A stretch of 35,751 bases of DNA, from contig CANGWV010000005.1 of NCBI GenBank assembly GCA_947457875.1, forward strand, positions 1 to 35,751, given 5' to 3'. Position numbers and translations under genes: made by a program. The notes beneath the pieces were generated by a model. That model was not told the DNA's origin and made no database searches. It worked only from the letters and a program-made list of their open reading frames with translations. Numbering within the stretch: position 1 is the stretch's first letter; each line of letters starts with the position of its first letter. Below are positions 439 through 31,469 of the stretch, piece by piece. Origin of the DNA: Burkholderiaceae bacterium (GTDB lineage: Bacteria; Pseudomonadota; Gammaproteobacteria; Burkholderiales; Burkholderiaceae).

Positions 439-464
439 TTTCTTTCGGTCACACTGTTTTGCTG

Positions 465-490
465 AAAGGGTCGCGCAAGCGGCCCTTTTT
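465..490 (+). terminator. Rho-independent terminator after rpsI
   Basis: A 10-bp stem (AAAGGGTCGC pairing with GCGGCCCTTT, one T-G pair) closes a GCAA tetraloop and runs into a T-tract. It lies 27 bases after the rpsI stop and separates rpsI from argC. Confidence 0.9.
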
Positions 491-571
491 GTTTCTACAA
501 TTAGGGTGTGAATACGGATAAAGTAGTAGCGCTGCACGATAATTTGGTGTGAGCGTATTTGGGAGAATGGG

Positions 572-1630
572 ATGATTAAAGTAGGCATTGTTGGCGGCAC
601 GGGATACACTGGCGTAGAGCTATTGCGTTTACTCGCACAGCATCCGCAAGTCACCATTCAGGCAATCACTTCGCGTACCGAAGCCGGTATGCCGGTAGCC
701 GACCTATTTCCATCTTTACGCGGCCGAATTGACTTGAAATTTTCCACACCAGACGAAGCCAAATTGGATCAGTGTGACGCTGTGTTTTTTGCAACACCGC
801 ACGGAGTCGCAATGGCGCAAGCCGAAGCCTTGCTCGCTGCGGGTGTGAAGGTACTGGATTTGGCGGCAGACTTTCGTTTAAAAGACACTGCTGAATTTAC
901 GCAGTGGTACGGCATGCCACATGCATGCCCTGCGATTTTGGCAGAAGCGGTTTATGGTCTTCCTGAAATCAATCGTGAGGCAATCAAAAAGGCGCGCGTA
1001 GTCGGTTTGGCCGGTTGCTATCCCACCTCTGTGCAGTTGGGTTTTGCCCCACTCTTGTCGCCGAAGTCGACTGGCGGTAAGCACTGGATTGATGGACTGC
1101 ATTTGATTTCTGACTCCAAGTCAGGCACTTCTGGCGCCGGCCGTAAAGCGGAGGTAGGCACTTTGCTGGCGGAGGCCAGCGATAATTTCAAGGCCTATGC
1201 GGTTAAGGGTCATCGCCATAGCCCTGAGATTGCCCAAGGCTTAAAAGCCATTGCGCAATCCGATCAAATCGGCCTGACCTTTGTTCCGCACCTCACGCCC
1301 ATGATTCGGGGCATTCATTCAACCTTGTATGCGCGCATTACCGAGGACGGCAAGGATGTCGACTTTCAAGCGGTTTTTGAGCAATTCTATAAAGATGAGC
1401 CATTCGTGGATGTAATGCCTGCCGGTAGCCATCCTGAAACTCGCTCGGTACGGGGTAGCAATGGCCTGCGAATCGCGATCCATCGCCCCGGAAATGGCGA
1501 TACCTTGGTGATTCTGGTGGTGGAGGACAATCTCGTCAAAGGAGCCTCAGGCCAAGGTGTACAGTGCCTTAATTTGATGTTTGGGCTGCCTGAGACCATG
1601 GGCTTGACCCAAATTGCCCTCTCGCCTTAA
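572..1630 (+). CDS. argC: N-acetyl-gamma-glutamyl-phosphate reductase
   Basis: NADPH-dependent reduction of N-acetyl-glutamyl-5-phosphate to the semialdehyde, the third step of arginine synthesis, in the cytosol. The 352-residue protein begins with a nucleotide-binding loop ([10 protein letters not shown], residues 5-14) and has the catalytic cysteine in GLAGCYPTS (Cys149). The [10 protein letters not shown] and [11 protein letters not shown] segments are typical of the long ArgC form. GGGAGAATGGG precedes the ATG, giving a good ribosome-binding site. It sits alone between a terminator and erpA, so it is probably transcribed from its own promoter in 491-571. Confidence 0.97.
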
Positions 1631-1720
1631 AGTGGTATTAGTGCGTTTTACATGCCCTTACGCTGGAGCGGGCATTTAGAGCCTAAAATAGAGAAACACT
1701 TTTTGAACTAGGAGTCATTT

Positions 1721-2095
1721 ATGACACAAGTTGCTACAACCCAATCCAACGATCTTGCTGAGCCACCGATTCCATTGGTCTTTACCGATAGCGCGGCAGC
1801 AAAAGTAGCGGACCTGATTGCCGAAGAAGGTAACCCTGAATTAAAGCTGCGCGTATTTGTACAAGGCGGCGGCTGCTCTGGTTTTCAGTACGGCTTCACG
1901 TTTGATGATGCTGTGAATGAAGACGACACTGCTTTTGATAAGAATGGCGTAACCCTATTGGTGGATTCAATGAGCTTTCAGTACCTCGTTGGTGCCGAGA
2001 TCGATTACAAAGAAGACATCAACGGTTCGCAGTTTGTTATTAAGAATCCCAATGCCACAACAACCTGTGGTTGCGGATCGTCTTTCTCCGCATAA
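1721..2095 (+). CDS. erpA: Iron-sulfur cluster insertion protein ErpA
   Basis: A-type carrier that delivers Fe-S clusters to target enzymes, for example those of isoprenoid synthesis and respiration. The three conserved cysteines are present: Cys52 in QGGGCSGF, and Cys116 and Cys118 in TTCGCGSS near the C-terminus. At 124 residues it is slightly longer than Escherichia coli ErpA because of an N-terminal extension before the core. CTAGGAG lies a few bases before the ATG. The 90-base gap after argC and an inverted repeat there suggest separate transcription. ErpA rather than IscA is preferred because no isc genes adjoin it. Confidence 0.93.
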
Positions 2096-2104
2096 GCTAT
2101 TAGC

Positions 2105-3235
2105 TCAAGCAGGGTAGCAAGCGCCTAAGATTCGAGGCCCACTTGCTCCTGTAACGGCCGGCAGATTTGCTGGCCGTTTTGTTTTGTGCGCCCACGCTAG
2201 CCATGCAAAGGCCAGAGCCTCAACCAGCTGTGGATCGACTCCATTTACTTCACTACTGCGGATTTCAAGAGTATGTTTGAATAGCGTTTTTGTATGCTCG
2301 CGCAACCCATTGAGCAATGCCGTGTTGCGAACCCCGCCACCACACACAATCAGAACTTCGGTTTGCGGTGCATACGTACGAATGGATTGCAGCGCCGTAG
2401 TCACGGTGAGGCGCAATAGCGTTGCTTGTACATCTTCCGCCTTAAACGCATTACTGCCAATTTGCTTTTCTAGCCACTGCAGATGAAAGTCATCGCGGCC
2501 CGTGCTTTTGGGCGGCACTTTAGCAAAAAAAGGATCTGCCAACATTCGATCGAGTAGGAAATTGTTCACCGCCCCTTGCGCAGCCCAGGCACCGTCCTGG
2601 TCAAAGGCTTTACCTTGGTATTTTGTAATCCAGGCATCCATCAGCATGTTGCCGGGGCCGCAATCAAAACCAGTAACGGCGCCATTTTTCGGAAGGATTG
2701 TGAGGTTGGCGATACCGCCGAGGTTCAGTACAGCCGTGTTTTTATCGCTTGCAAATTGCTGCGCATGAAATGCGGGCACCAAAGGGGCGCCATGGCCGCC
2801 TGCAGCGAGATCACGGCTCCGAAAGTCCGCAATCACATCAATGCCAGTGAGTTCGGCCAGCAATGCGGGGTTTAGAGTTTGGTGGGTATACGCAAGTGCG
2901 TTATTGGGACCTGCTTGGTGCCGAATGGTTTGTCCATGTGCCCCAATCGCAGTGATGTCGGAGGGGTGCCGTTTGCACTTTGAAAGCAGTTGCTGGACCA
3001 CCTCCGCATAGGCCATCGCCAAGGCATTTGCAGCTAGATGTTCACGGTGAATTTCATTGTCGCCCGGAGTTTGGAGGGCCAATAAGGCTTCACGGAGCGG
3101 GGGTGTAAAGGGGATGCTCACAGCCCCGCAGAGTTGCGTCTCGCCGTCAGGACCAAGCTCGGCAAGTACTGCATCAATCCCGTCAAGGCTGGTACCAGAC
3201 ATCATGCCGATATAAAGGGAGTGGGACTTATCCAT
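2105..3235 (-). CDS. anmK: Anhydro-N-acetylmuramic acid kinase
   Basis: Cytosolic kinase that opens the 1,6-anhydro ring of anhydro-MurNAc released during peptidoglycan turnover and phosphorylates it to MurNAc-6-phosphate. The 376-residue product starts with the ATP-binding signature GMMSGTSLDGID (residues 10-21) and has the family segments GAHGQTIRH, LNLGGIANLT and GFDCGPGNMLMD. Length and motifs match the family. It is divergent from tyrS (89-base gap) and convergent with erpA (9-base gap). Together with amgK and murU elsewhere in this window it indicates wall recycling through the anabolic MurNAc-1-phosphate route. Confidence 0.96.
   Translation of the reverse strand: MDKSHSLYIGMMSGTSLDGIDAVLAELGPDGETQLCGAVSIPFTPPLREALLALQTPGDNEIHREHLAANALAMAYAEVVQQLLSKCKRHPSDITAIGAHGQTIRHQAGPNNALAYTHQTLNPALLAELTGIDVIADFRSRDLAAGGHGAPLVPAFHAQQFASDKNTAVLNLGGIANLTILPKNGAVTGFDCGPGNMLMDAWITKYQGKAFDQDGAWAAQGAVNNFLLDRMLADPFFAKVPPKSTGRDDFHLQWLEKQIGSNAFKAEDVQATLLRLTVTTALQSIRTYAPQTEVLIVCGGGVRNTALLNGLREHTKTLFKHTLEIRSSEVNGVDPQLVEALAFAWLAWAHKTKRPANLPAVTGASGPRILGACYPA
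2153..2186 (+). terminator. Probable erpA terminator inside the 3' end of anmK
   Basis: An 11-bp stem (AACGGCCGGCA with TGCTGGCCGTT, one G-T pair) with a GATT loop is followed on the plus strand by TTGTTTTG. It lies about 60 bases beyond the erpA stop. The same bases encode the last residues of AnmK on the other strand. On the minus strand no T-run follows the stem, so it should act only on plus-strand transcription. Confidence 0.65.
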
Positions 3236-3324
3236 GCGGTAGGCAAGCTCTATTCTGAGGAATGCGACAATACTATTATCGTAACTGAAACCCTAATTTA
3301 ACCGAACTCGATAATTGAATCAGT

Positions 3325-4557
3325 ATGGCGGCTACCCCAGAATCGAAATACCCACTGACACCCGACGTTTTTGCTGCCCTAGAGGTAACAAAACGCGGTT
3401 GTGACGAGCTTTTAGTAGAGGTTGATTGGCTTGCCAAGCTCGCCCGTAGCCAGGCTACAAAAACACCACTGCGAATTAAGTTGGGTCTTGACCCAACGGC
3501 GCCAGATATTCATTTGGGGCATACGGTGGTTTTGAACAAGCTGCGGCAACTGCAAGACTTGGGCCATACCGTGATTTTCTTGATTGGCGATTTCACGAGC
3601 ATGATCGGCGATCCTTCAGGCCGAAACGCAACCCGCCCACCGCTCACGCCAGAAGCAATTGCTGAAAATGCGCAAACCTATTACAAGCAAGCTAGCCTGG
3701 TGCTTGACCCAACTAAAACCGAAGTGCGTTACAACAGCGAGTGGTGCGATCCGCTGGGCGCACGCGGCATGATTCAATTGGCGGCACGCTATACCGTCGC
3801 GCGCATGCTCGAGCGTGATGACTTTACGAAGCGTTATCGCTCGGGTGTGCCAATTTCAGTGCACGAATTTCTGTATCCACTCATGCAAGGCTATGACTCC
3901 GTTGCCTTAAAGAGTGATTTGGAGCTGGGCGGTACCGATCAGAAATTCAATCTACTCGTAGGGCGTGAGCTGCAACGGGAGTACGGTCAAGAGCCACAGT
4001 GTATTTTGACTATGCCATTGCTGGTTGGTCTCGACGGCGTTGAGAAAATGAGCAAATCGAAGGCCAATTACGTTGGCATCAGTGAAGAGCCAAACGAGAT
4101 GTTTGGCAAGCTCATGAGCATTTCCGATGAATTGATGTGGAGCTACTTCACATTACTCTCGTTTAGGCCTCTTGCTGAAATTGATTTAATGAAGCAAGAA
4201 GTGGCGGCCGGCCGCAATCCGCGTGACTGCAAAGTGCTCCTTGCCCAAGAAATCGTGGCACGCTTTCATACACAGGCAGCAGCTGAAAAAGCCTTGGAAG
4301 AATTTAATCACCGCGCCAAAGGCGGTATCCCGGACGATGTTCCCGAGATCGCCTTATCGGGCGCACCACTCGGTATTACTGCATTAATCAAGATGACTGG
4401 TTTAGCGCCATCGAATGCAGAAGCCAATCGCAATATTGAGCAGGGTGGGGTGCGAATTGATGGAGCGGTGATTAGCGATAAAGGCTTGCAAGTCGCTGCA
4501 GGATCCTTTGTATTGCAGGTAGGTAAGCGTCGTTTTGTGAAGGTGACGCTGAGCTAA
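3325..4557 (+). CDS. tyrS: Tyrosyl-tRNA synthetase
   Basis: Charges tRNA-Tyr with tyrosine in the cytosol. The 410-residue protein has the class I signatures: HLGH at residues 63-66 (HIGH motif) and KMSKS at 241-245. A C-terminal S4-type RNA-binding domain occupies roughly residues 345-410 ([14 protein letters not shown] segment). The [13 protein letters not shown] start is typical of betaproteobacterial TyrS of the long subgroup. The ATG has only a weak ribosome-binding site, but no better start is visible. The gene ends 6 bases from the ruvB stop on the opposite strand. Confidence 0.97.
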
Positions 4558-28601: not shown

Positions 28602-28916
28602 ATGATCAAACTTCTTCATCTTTGTGCGCTGCTTTTATTGGCTGGCATTGGTATGCGGGCGGTTGCAGCACCGATTTACATCACCAGCTACCCGTCTGAG
28701 GCCAATGCTAAGGTATTTGTGACGCAATACAAATCCGAGGCCAATTGCATTGTGTTTGAAACGCCTTACCAAAGCGAGAATGACCCGGGAGTCTGGTTCT
28801 TCACCAAATACAAAAGCAATGCACGGGCTCGCATTTACTACACTCAATACAAATCAGAGGCTGATTTAGTGGTGTATTTCACGAAGTACAAAAGCGAGGC
28901 GCGTTGCCGTTATTAA
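28602..28916 (+). CDS. Secreted six-repeat protein, DUF6150 / septoil-knot type
   Basis: Function unknown. The 104-residue product begins with a clear signal peptide (basic MIK, leucine-rich core, cleavage near VAA-P at residue 23), so it should act in the periplasm or outside. The mature part is almost wholly six repeats of 13 residues with the pattern [VI]-[FY]-x-T-x-Y-x-S-E-A-x-x-x. The key tyrosines fall at 30, 43, 56, 70, 83 and 96; one extra residue (Trp65 region) shifts the phase at repeat 4. Two cysteines, Cys49 and Cys102, could form a disulfide. The repeat pattern and the internal GVWFF break match my recollection of DUF6150, a family I recall being described as a 7_1-knotted beta fold. 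The MOSC gene follows after 2 bases. Confidence 0.8.
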   Translation: MIKLLHLCALLLLAGIGMRAVAAPIYITSYPSEANAKVFVTQYKSEANCIVFETPYQSENDPGVWFFTKYKSNARARIYYTQYKSEADLVVYFTKYKSEARCRY

Positions 28917-29576: not shown

Positions 29577-29653
29577 TGGTGGCGATTCAGGGATTCGAAC
29601 CCCGGACCTGTGGATTATGATTCCATCGCTCTAACCAACTGAGCTAAATCGCC
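29577..29653 (-). tRNA. tRNA-Met (anticodon CAT), probably elongator
   Basis: A full cloverleaf reads on the minus strand: acceptor GGCGATT pairing with AATCGCC, D-arm GCTC/GAGC, anticodon loop ATCATAA with anticodon CAT, T-arm CGGGG/CCCTG with TTCGAAT loop, discriminator A and an encoded CCA. The fully paired first acceptor pair and the lack of three G-C pairs in the anticodon stem argue against initiator tRNA. A CAT tRNA-Ile2 (lysidine-modified) cannot be excluded without comparison. The outermost anticodon-stem pair is an A-C mismatch. Confidence 0.93.
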
Positions 29654-29837: not shown

Positions 29838-30755
29838 TTAAAACCGCGTTACTAAATTCAGCGCTATTGCAGGAGCCGTTTTGTAGTTTGAATTGAACAC
29901 CTTGTTTCCGCTACTGTCTGTAACCGAAACGGCGCCCCCAACATTCGCAATCGTATAAAGATCTAATCGGGTTTGCCGATCAAATGCATAGGAAAACTTT
30001 GCAAAAACGGGGACAAAACGATTTTCACCAACACCGCCGGCGTAGGCACTGGAATCATTCAGTCTAAAGCGATAGCTGCGATAAGCGGCTCCACCTGAAA
30101 CCTTAAAGCTTGGAGTGACTGCATACGTCAACTCCAGTCCAGCACCACCTGCAGGACCTCCTGGGAATGGGTTGTTTAAGTTCCATCGGTCGGTGATTTT
30201 CCAGTCAATCACCACGAAAGGAAAAATACGATTTGTATCAATTTGACGGAAGACGCCAGTGCCCAGTCCGAGATTTAGGGTAGGGGACAACTGCTTCGAT
30301 GCATTCACGATACTGCCGTAGGTTAGTGAATTGCTCGCACTGGTGCCCTGCTCTCCAGATGACTCTACGGTAGGAATGAGATTTAATCTCCAGTCAGAAT
30401 CCAGTTTGTGGGAGTAGACCATGCTGAGAGCTGGAGAATTAATGGTTGACCATGGATTTTTTCCGCTGGCACTATAGCTTTGCATATTGCTCCAGTTCCA
30501 AAACTCACTCTCGTATCGTACAGAGATGCCTACTGTGGTGCTCGATGAAACAGGTTTGATGAGGCCTAAAGAAGCACTGACGTTTGACCATCCGAAATTG
30601 CCGGATGCTTTTAAATCGGTATTGAGCTGATTAACACCAACGATGCTAACGGATGCTCGAATTGCATCGCTCTGTCCAGGACCGCTTGGCTGTGCTTGGC
30701 TTATGACGGGGAGCCCAATCAGTACGAGTGCGAACTGCAGAAAAAGGTGACGCAT
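29838..30755 (-). CDS. Predicted outer-membrane beta-barrel protein of unknown function
   Basis: I do not recognise a specific function. The 305-residue product starts with a signal peptide (MRHLFLQFALVLIGLPV, cleavage near SQA-Q at about residue 21). The rest is rich in alternating polar and hydrophobic stretches with many aromatic, serine and glycine residues, and ends in a terminal phenylalanine (LNLVTRF), the usual outer-membrane insertion signal. Composition resembles the DUF6268-type barrels, offered only as a suggestion. It stands alone, with gaps of 184 and 168 bases on its two sides, in which I see no other genes. The following minus-strand gap has a weak palindrome but no clear terminator. 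Confidence 0.75.
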   Translation of the reverse strand: MRHLFLQFALVLIGLPVISQAQPSGPGQSDAIRASVSIVGVNQLNTDLKASGNFGWSNVSASLGLIKPVSSSTTVGISVRYESEFWNWSNMQSYSASGKNPWSTINSPALSMVYSHKLDSDWRLNLIPTVESSGEQGTSASNSLTYGSIVNASKQLSPTLNLGLGTGVFRQIDTNRIFPFVVIDWKITDRWNLNNPFPGGPAGGAGLELTYAVTPSFKVSGGAAYRSYRFRLNDSSAYAGGVGENRFVPVFAKFSYAFDRQTRLDLYTIANVGGAVSVTDSSGNKVFNSNYKTAPAIALNLVTRF

Positions 30756-30923: not shown

Positions 30924-31469
30924 TTAATTAAACGTCCATTTAGCCCAAGTAAATAGTACATTTCCAAAACCATCTCCTCCAGGCACAAATGCCGTTTGCA
31001 GGCTTGCCTTTTTGTAACTAATGGATCCAACTGGTAAAAGGCCGGGAAATGGAATGTAATTATTGATGTCTTGTCGGGACATCATAAAAACCGTGGCACC
31101 CGCACCGATTTTCCAGTCGCCATTATTCGAGAGGTTCCAACTGGGGATCCAGGCATACCCAGCCATGTATTGGTAGATACCATGGGAATCTTTAAAGGTC
31201 ATTCCGTAAATGCCTTCCCAATTATTGTTTTTGTTGTAATAGCCTTTTCCAACGCCGATGCCAAGGGGTATGTGGGTATATTGGCTAATCTTTTCTGGTG
31301 AGTAGGCGTAGGGCATGTGATAGGTATACAGAGGCACATACAACTCCCAATCGCCTTTATCGATGATCGTTTTGAAACGCGCTTTTGTATTGTCGATAAA
31401 AGAGGAAGTAGATTGCGCATGCGCGCAATGCATTGAAAATAGAAAAAGAATGGCGAGAAATTGACGCAT
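30924..31469 (-). CDS. pagP: PagP-like lipid A acyltransferase
   Basis: Outer-membrane enzyme that transfers an acyl chain (palmitate in Escherichia coli) from phospholipid to lipid A. The 181-residue protein has a signal peptide (cleavage near AHA-Q at residue 18) and an eight-strand barrel. The catalytic residues line up as His51 (YTYHMPYAY), Asp94 and Ser95 (FKDSHG), with the same 43-residue His-to-Asp spacing as Escherichia coli His33/Asp76. It also keeps NWEGIYGM, IPFPGLLPVGSISY and the final FTWAKWTF. The residue matching Gly88, the floor of the acyl-chain pocket, is Ala106 (GYAW rather than GYGW). It stands alone, with its own candidate promoter. Confidence 0.9.
   Translation of the reverse strand: MRQFLAILFLFSMHCAHAQSTSSFIDNTKARFKTIIDKGDWELYVPLYTYHMPYAYSPEKISQYTHIPLGIGVGKGYYNKNNNWEGIYGMTFKDSHGIYQYMAGYAWIPSWNLSNNGDWKIGAGATVFMMSRQDINNYIPFPGLLPVGSISYKKASLQTAFVPGGDGFGNVLFTWAKWTFN

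Follow-up and report, generated by a model that had tools for sequence, protein, structure and literature searches.

A gene at positions 28602..28916 of the forward strand (ATG to TAA) of a contig from a freshwater Burkholderiaceae bacterium encodes a 104-residue protein of the DUF6150 family (PF19647) that is very likely exported and whose chain is probably knotted. The window, meaning the whole stretch of DNA that was analyzed, comprises 35,751 nucleotides of contig CANGWV010000005.1 (assembly GCA_947457875.1). We conclude that the encoded protein is a true member of a known, very probably knotted family and that it is exported, cysteine-bearing, strongly constrained, and accessory. New here are a subgroup of exported proteins with the cysteine pair, together with where it occurs, the natural repeat-loss alleles, and the type VI secretion neighborhood of the signal-less arm of the family. 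As an explanation of the whole, we favor on balance an exported DUF6150 protein that forms a two-turn ring with a 7_1 knot tied outside the cytoplasm and may serve as a small envelope module. Such a protein would carry what is probably the most complex knot among proteins in a small, exported form with cysteines.

Membership in DUF6150, which an earlier note on this DNA had suggested and proposed to check by a Pfam hidden Markov model search, is virtually certain. The protein scored 48.7 bits (cut-off 27, E 7.8e-13), with residues 19-102 aligned to positions 5-89 of the 98-position model and thus covering nearly all of it. DUF6150 was the sole Pfam family above its cut-off (the next, a cytokine-receptor domain, had an E value of 0.14), an NCBIfam scan of the protein gave no match, and scanning the whole genome (assembly of 1.58 Mb in 121 contigs, 79% complete) with PF19647 returned one copy. 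A profile search yielded 399 relatives; the best 120 of the 399 all carry PF19647, and the five among these 120 with an organism in their names belong to Bacteroidota or to groups taken to belong there. The window protein has six 13-residue repeats and a tryptophan break after the third, a plan common to 85 parsed relatives (the family plan is our own reading and not a published definition). The parser of repeats and cysteines accepted 85 of 135 proteins and rejected most genus-type rows, including the window protein, and a separate repeat counter undercounts owing to its strict pattern. Three relatives of 229 residues (P0078, P0092, and P0093) combine a signal-peptide-like start and a DUF6150 domain with a fused C-terminal rhodanese domain (PF00581).

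The protein begins with a putative Sec signal peptide (residues 1-22, 28602..28667), read by eye from K3, a hydrophobic stretch at residues 4-18, and the cleavage motif A20-V21-A22; the model places a helix at residues 2-14. The repeats follow on the same strand as repeat 1 (residues 24-36, PIYITSYPSEANA, 28671..28709), repeat 2 (residues 37-49, KVFVTQYKSEANC, 28710..28748), which ends in Cys49, repeat 3 (residues 50-62, IVFETPYQSENDP, 28749..28787), the one-residue break G63 ahead of the Trp repeat (28788..28790), repeat 4 (residues 64-76, VWFFTKYKSNARA, 28791..28829), which contains Trp65, repeat 5 (residues 77-89, RIYYTQYKSEADL, 28830..28868), and repeat 6 (residues 90-102, VVYFTKYKSEARC, 28869..28907), which ends in Cys102; all were read from the translation, as were the C-terminal residues RY (28908..28913). 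Within residues 24-104, 26 of 68 lag-13 positions were identical, compared with a shuffled mean of 4.2 (SD 1.9, maximum 14), and none of 20,000 shuffles reached 26. The repeats are spaced 13, 13, 14, 13, and 13 residues apart, the value of 14 marking the break GVW after repeat 3. The reading frame, the six repeats, the tyrosines at residues 30, 43, 56, 70, 83, and 96, the tryptophan-containing break, and the export signal were thus as the earlier note had described them. Its statement that nothing but repeats lies past the signal peptide held for the six repeats but passed over residues 101-102, a short seventh strand by DSSP analysis of the predicted model; likewise, Cys49 and Cys102 are as described, but a third cysteine, Cys8 within the signal peptide, went unmentioned. 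When the repeats were compared in pairs as DNA, only 13-26 of the 39 bases agreed, which rules out a recent repeat expansion and indicates that the repeats are old. The window protein differs from the rest of PF19647 in its 14-residue break, where 80 of the 85 parsed relatives have a spacing of 16, and in its cysteine pair on repeats 2 and 6, found in only 2 of those 85.

Predicted fold, knot type, and cysteine pair

The fold of the full-length protein was predicted confidently (86 aligned sequences), with the six repeats as strand-turn units, and the sole solved relative found was Q9PR55 of Ureaplasma urealyticum. The passages of PMC13352647 and PMC11223836 that cite Hsu et al. 2024 give this protein a 7_1 knot (PDB 8IWA, 8IWB, and 8JRM). 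The model superposed on the knotted core of the solved structure; residues 24-84 of Q9PR55, 61 positions in all, were each aligned, so that its side of the match has no gap (61 aligned residues). The two proteins have only 10% identity, and phmmer and three profiles did not reach 8IWA, so that no sequence relation to Q9PR55 was found. Unlike Q9PR55, the window protein is exported and carries the cysteine pair, and it is about 20 residues longer over the same core, approximately one helical turn (the S-E-A corner) per repeat. On the basis of the model, the two proteins in all likelihood share one fold.

In the proposed arrangement, the chain would circle a small ring twice, with approximately 3.5 units per turn, and the six repeats together with the C-terminal strand would make seven units. 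According to Doyle et al. 2023 (PMC10598012), q repeats turning twice round an axis give a (2,q) torus knot when q is odd; by this rule, seven units would give the (2,7) torus knot, 7_1. The designed (2,3) and (2,5) proteins of that paper are helical, and the designed pentafoil folded as a trefoil. Their likeness to the window protein is that repeat number sets the knot; they are designed, helical, and unrelated to it.

It is rather likely that the knot is 7_1 and not 5_1. The same ring could instead carry a 5_1 knot if one very short tail were left unthreaded, an outcome to which we give a minor share of the probability. It draws on P73136, which section 3 of Brems et al. 2022 (PMC9278004) presents as a predicted 5_1 knot and a probable homologue of the 7_1 protein Q9PR55 with one winding fewer, and on the shortness of the mature protein, which extends only about 3 residues past the core at each end. 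The gap-free match to Q9PR55 argues against it, as each winding then has an equivalent. A larger departure would be a repeat protein without a knot, such as a solenoid, a small propeller, or a barrel, in which case AlphaFold would have produced the knot as an artefact or the model would contain none. Here the Foldseek superposition on Q9PR55 counts against our interpretation, as its template-modeling (TM) score was poor (0.26-0.34), and AlphaFold is reportedly blind to chain crossing; we nevertheless consider an unknotted chain improbable.

The match to a 7_1-knotted structure backs the mention of such a knot in the earlier note, whose interpretation is partly supported overall; its word "deeply" is doubtful. 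A deep knot survives the cutting of five residues from each end. Judged from the alignment ranges, the core ends about 3 residues from each mature end, and the knot is therefore probably shallow.

Every one of the 64 distinct full-length coding sequences encodes both Cys49 and Cys102. At the ends of repeats 2 and 6, they lie four units apart and would stand side by side on neighboring strands, because the ring neighbors of unit i are units i+3 and i+4. A disulfide between them is likely. It would pin the short C-terminal tail and stop the knot from slipping, which would matter because so few residues lie outside the core. Sec would carry the chain unfolded across the inner membrane, with the knot then tied outside the cytoplasm and hence without ATP-driven chaperones. 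The system lets one ask whether a seven-crossing knot ties itself in the cell and whether it is held shut by a disulfide.

Selection and repeat loss in the genus

Among named records, the closest are those of Polynucleobacter and Burkholderiaceae, and the genus is called Polynucleobacter here on account of this resemblance. The knot gene was matched in 69 of 186 genus genomes, one copy each, and in 53 of the 144 more complete ones. In the family sample, 32 of 349 genomes had a match (21 in the genus, including the window's own, and 11 elsewhere); the class and phylum samples, each counting the window's own genome, gave 4 of 369 and 4 of 398. To estimate the ratio of nonsynonymous to synonymous substitution rates (dN/dS), 108 loci were tried and 102 were read, yielding 66 distinct sequences, 64 of them full length (81 residues). 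Those not read were L002-L004, for which the pattern was too narrow and which are intact by eye, and the broken loci L016, L034, and L035. Several loci duplicate a genome that is present in two collections, and the contigs that hold three of the distinct sequences bear the labels Myxococcota, Deltaproteobacteria, and Steroidobacteraceae.

The median dN/dS was 0.023 (219 pairs), and only 1 nonsynonymous change, against 19 synonymous ones, separates the window copy from its nearest relative; the exported gene is under very strong purifying selection. These values contradict, for the window copy, the view that the gene is a decaying relic in its lineage, which we find scarcely credible even though stop codons interrupt the gene in 3 of the 69 carriers (G065, G133, and G159) and two others lack some of the repeats. 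Decay likely applies to a few other copies.

Two of the 69 carriers, both assembled as a single contig, have shortened forms: in G031 (1.93 Mb), 26 residues or exactly two repeats are missing, and in G183 (2.04 Mb), 13 residues or exactly one. By eye, 11 of 26 close homologues from the protein collection are short by 26-40 residues, a proportion that is not a natural frequency, as many full-length genus proteins are missing from that list. Eight have lost 26 residues at the repeat 4/6 junction (P0004, P0007, P0010, P0011, P0012, P0014, P0015, and P0017), two have lost 27 at the 3/5 junction (P0018 and P0021), and one has lost 40 (P0016). Not counted as short were P0020, P0022, and P0023 (early stops, probably contig ends), P0009 (late start), and P0005, P0008, and P0013 (altered tails). 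The signal peptides of the eight 4/6-junction homologues differ among themselves, and P0014 and P0017 have the complete signal sequence of genes with six repeats in G006 and G077. Collapse during assembly is not a likely general explanation, given that the longest identical run between any two repeats measures 8-20 bases across the 64 full-length sequences; it is possible for single metagenome contigs.

If the two-turn ring were kept, the loss of two units from seven would leave five and thus a 5_1 knot. Populations of the genus might then hold a ladder of knot types, with six-repeat alleles being 7_1 and four-repeat alleles 5_1, related by in-frame loss and with the cysteine pair adjacent in both; we put this forward as a long shot. 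The step from 7_1 to 5_1 is the difference given for Q9PR55 and P73136 in section 3 of Brems et al. (PMC9278004). An odd-number rule is countered by the single repeat lost in G183 and by the five repeats, counted by eye, of P0025 and P0026 (both of another lineage), P0116, and P0124. Moreover, the repeat pairs 4/6 and 3/5 most often hold the longest common stretch (18 and 14 of 64 sequences), so the excess of two-repeat losses is explicable by homology alone. A sober alternative is that the short forms are broken alleles of a dispensable gene. The MOSC-domain neighbor of the G031 gene (L032) lies on a very long branch (0.98), which speaks against a function for the short form; because the adjoining MOSC gene has diverged so strongly, this locus may be decaying. 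The G031 genome has a second MOSC match. A model of the four-repeat protein P0004 reached a predicted local distance difference test value (pLDDT) of 49.7 from 8 aligned sequences, which makes its comparison with the full-length prediction unfair, and we draw nothing from it or from its one PDB match (E 9.5). Were the ladder real, knot type would change within a species by simple deletion, in an exported protein that needs no cytoplasmic help to tie itself and whose family would serve type VI secretion through its signal-less arm. The shortened natural alleles in any case offer a ready series on how repeat number sets knot type.

Signal-less relatives and possible function

The search model used for the genus carriers found 11 carriers in other Burkholderiaceae genera, and those that were read start with MARIYQ or similar and have no signal peptide by eye. 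Eight of the 11 and two proteins from elsewhere in the class were matched individually to PF19647, and all 10 matched; an alignment of these ten matched the exported arm with a profile-profile probability of 98.1. The listed carriers of the genus, by contrast, begin like exported proteins, and the family thus comprises an exported and a signal-less arm. The signal-less Burkholderiaceae proteins thus share the Pfam family of the window protein but differ from it in their MARIYQ start, in having no conserved Cys49/Cys102 pair, and in their neighbors, which belong to a type VI secretion system (T6SS).

A TssA match (ImpA_N, PF06812) lies upstream on the same contig and strand in 10 of the 11 carriers (G333, G275, G481, G234, G476, G258, G221, G209, G480, and G483; the exception is G200), at approximately 0.9-5.8 kb from the DUF6150 gene by match coordinates. 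In L207 (G483), the order by Pfam is TssK (T6SS_VasE), TssM (IcmF-related), TssA, and, after 52 bases, DUF6150; in L198 (G333), only 43 bases come between TssA and DUF6150. A VipB match (PF05943) was found approximately 21-26 kb off on the same contig in seven of the 11 (G333, G275, G476, G258, G209, G480, and G483), with scores that are among the lowest for VipB in those genomes (351.7-390.1 bits versus 411-452 for the others). Two more matches of the low class, in G234 and G481, are on other contigs. Because the cluster VipB matches fall in this low-score class, one particular T6SS subtype is involved. A sigma-54 activator, a usual kind of T6SS regulator, is encoded near the gene in L202 (G476) and in L181 and L183 (G234 and G258), and several other cluster neighbors had no Pfam match. 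This neighborhood provides the first testable function for a family without a known role. In another family of the class, two loci (L193 and L194, in G526 and G667) have a signal-less DUF6150 gene and a mutually homologous neighbor gene (start MDSSR); neither genome has a VipB or TssA match.

The window genome, at 79% completeness, had no VipB match, and the window copy does not lie in a T6SS cluster. VipB was matched in only 1 of the 186 genus genomes (G025, a non-carrier), and the exported form is therefore not part of a T6SS of its own cell. We suggest, tentatively, that it is a small envelope module that the knot and disulfide make hard to unfold or digest, and that it binds or shields something; such a module would be worth keeping only in some habitats. 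Bacterial competition is the preferred setting because the signal-less Burkholderiaceae relatives are encoded inside type VI clusters, yet a link of the exported form to competition is doubtful, and the near absence of VipB from the genus counts against it. A bolder version, which we consider more doubtful still, makes the exported form a counterpart of the T6SS, an envelope shield or immunity-like protein against attackers, with the signal-less form being a working part of one T6SS subtype. The nearness to tssA in 10 of 11 carriers speaks for this version, as its chance is on the order of 1% per genome by our own estimate (1-4 TssA matches in 3.6-9.4 Mb, with no random-gene control), and the exported copies combine strong constraint with frequent loss, a pattern expected of a competition trait. 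However, the two arms may have diverged in function, no effector or attacker was identified, several other cluster genes lack an identity, and the genus-wide VipB count applies here as well. A literature search found no paper naming DUF6150 or PF19647, alone or with type VI secretion, and another, on type VI secretion together with knots and PAAR, listed no work about knotted proteins. Among phage and plasmid records P0001 had no match, none of 58 pattern matches on viral contigs was confirmed, and a signal-less relative had no match in plasmids, all in collections that may lack the relevant hosts; a viral structure library gave 0 matches at E <= 0.001.

The MOSC neighbor and the genomic site

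A MOSC-domain gene (PF03473; 28919..29530, forward strand) has its ATG two bases past the stop of the knot gene, and a MOSC gene directly follows the knot gene in 53 of the 69 genus carriers, even where the upstream gene differs. That upstream neighbor is miaB in the clade of the window and a 136-residue gene elsewhere. The two proteins might form a two-gene unit in molybdenum cofactor or sulfur chemistry, and the knot domain is fused to rhodanese, likewise of sulfur chemistry, in P0078, P0092, and P0093 of a different lineage. Nonetheless, MOSC was matched in 172 of the 186 genus genomes compared with 69 for the knot gene, and thus manages without it; 16 carriers had no MOSC match in the available 463-4096 downstream bases; and the MOSC protein has no export signal by eye. 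A partnership is possible, if poorly supported, and we rate such a unit as very unlikely.

The 136-residue gene precedes MOSC at 47 of 59 MOSC sites that have no knot gene; 56 of the 59 sites come from genomes in which the knot gene had no match, and the other three (G103, G104, and G115) from carriers with the gene elsewhere. Upstream of MOSC at the 59 sites, tblastn gave no knot-gene match, and motif matches such as FGGES lay far upstream and were judged to be chance. In a tree of MOSC sequences (111 rows), presence at the site changes 9 times compared with approximately 37 in shuffles, and at least 6 of the 9 changes are forced by well-supported branches, with the bootstrap not fully settled. 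Because the changes are so few, the knot gene has passed down mainly vertically at one site, with several losses or regains. The 136-residue protein (L121 and other genus loci) has a signal-peptide-like start and is encoded divergently from the MOSC or knot-MOSC genes.

Farther downstream in the window, all on the reverse strand, are a tRNA-Met (CAT; 29577-29653) just beyond the MOSC gene, a 305-residue protein with a signal-peptide-like start that matches DUF6268 (PF19783, 33.3 bits, cut-off 22.8; 29838-30755), and the lipid A palmitoyltransferase PagP (30924-31469; NCBIfam equivalog, 174.6 bits, cut-off 155).
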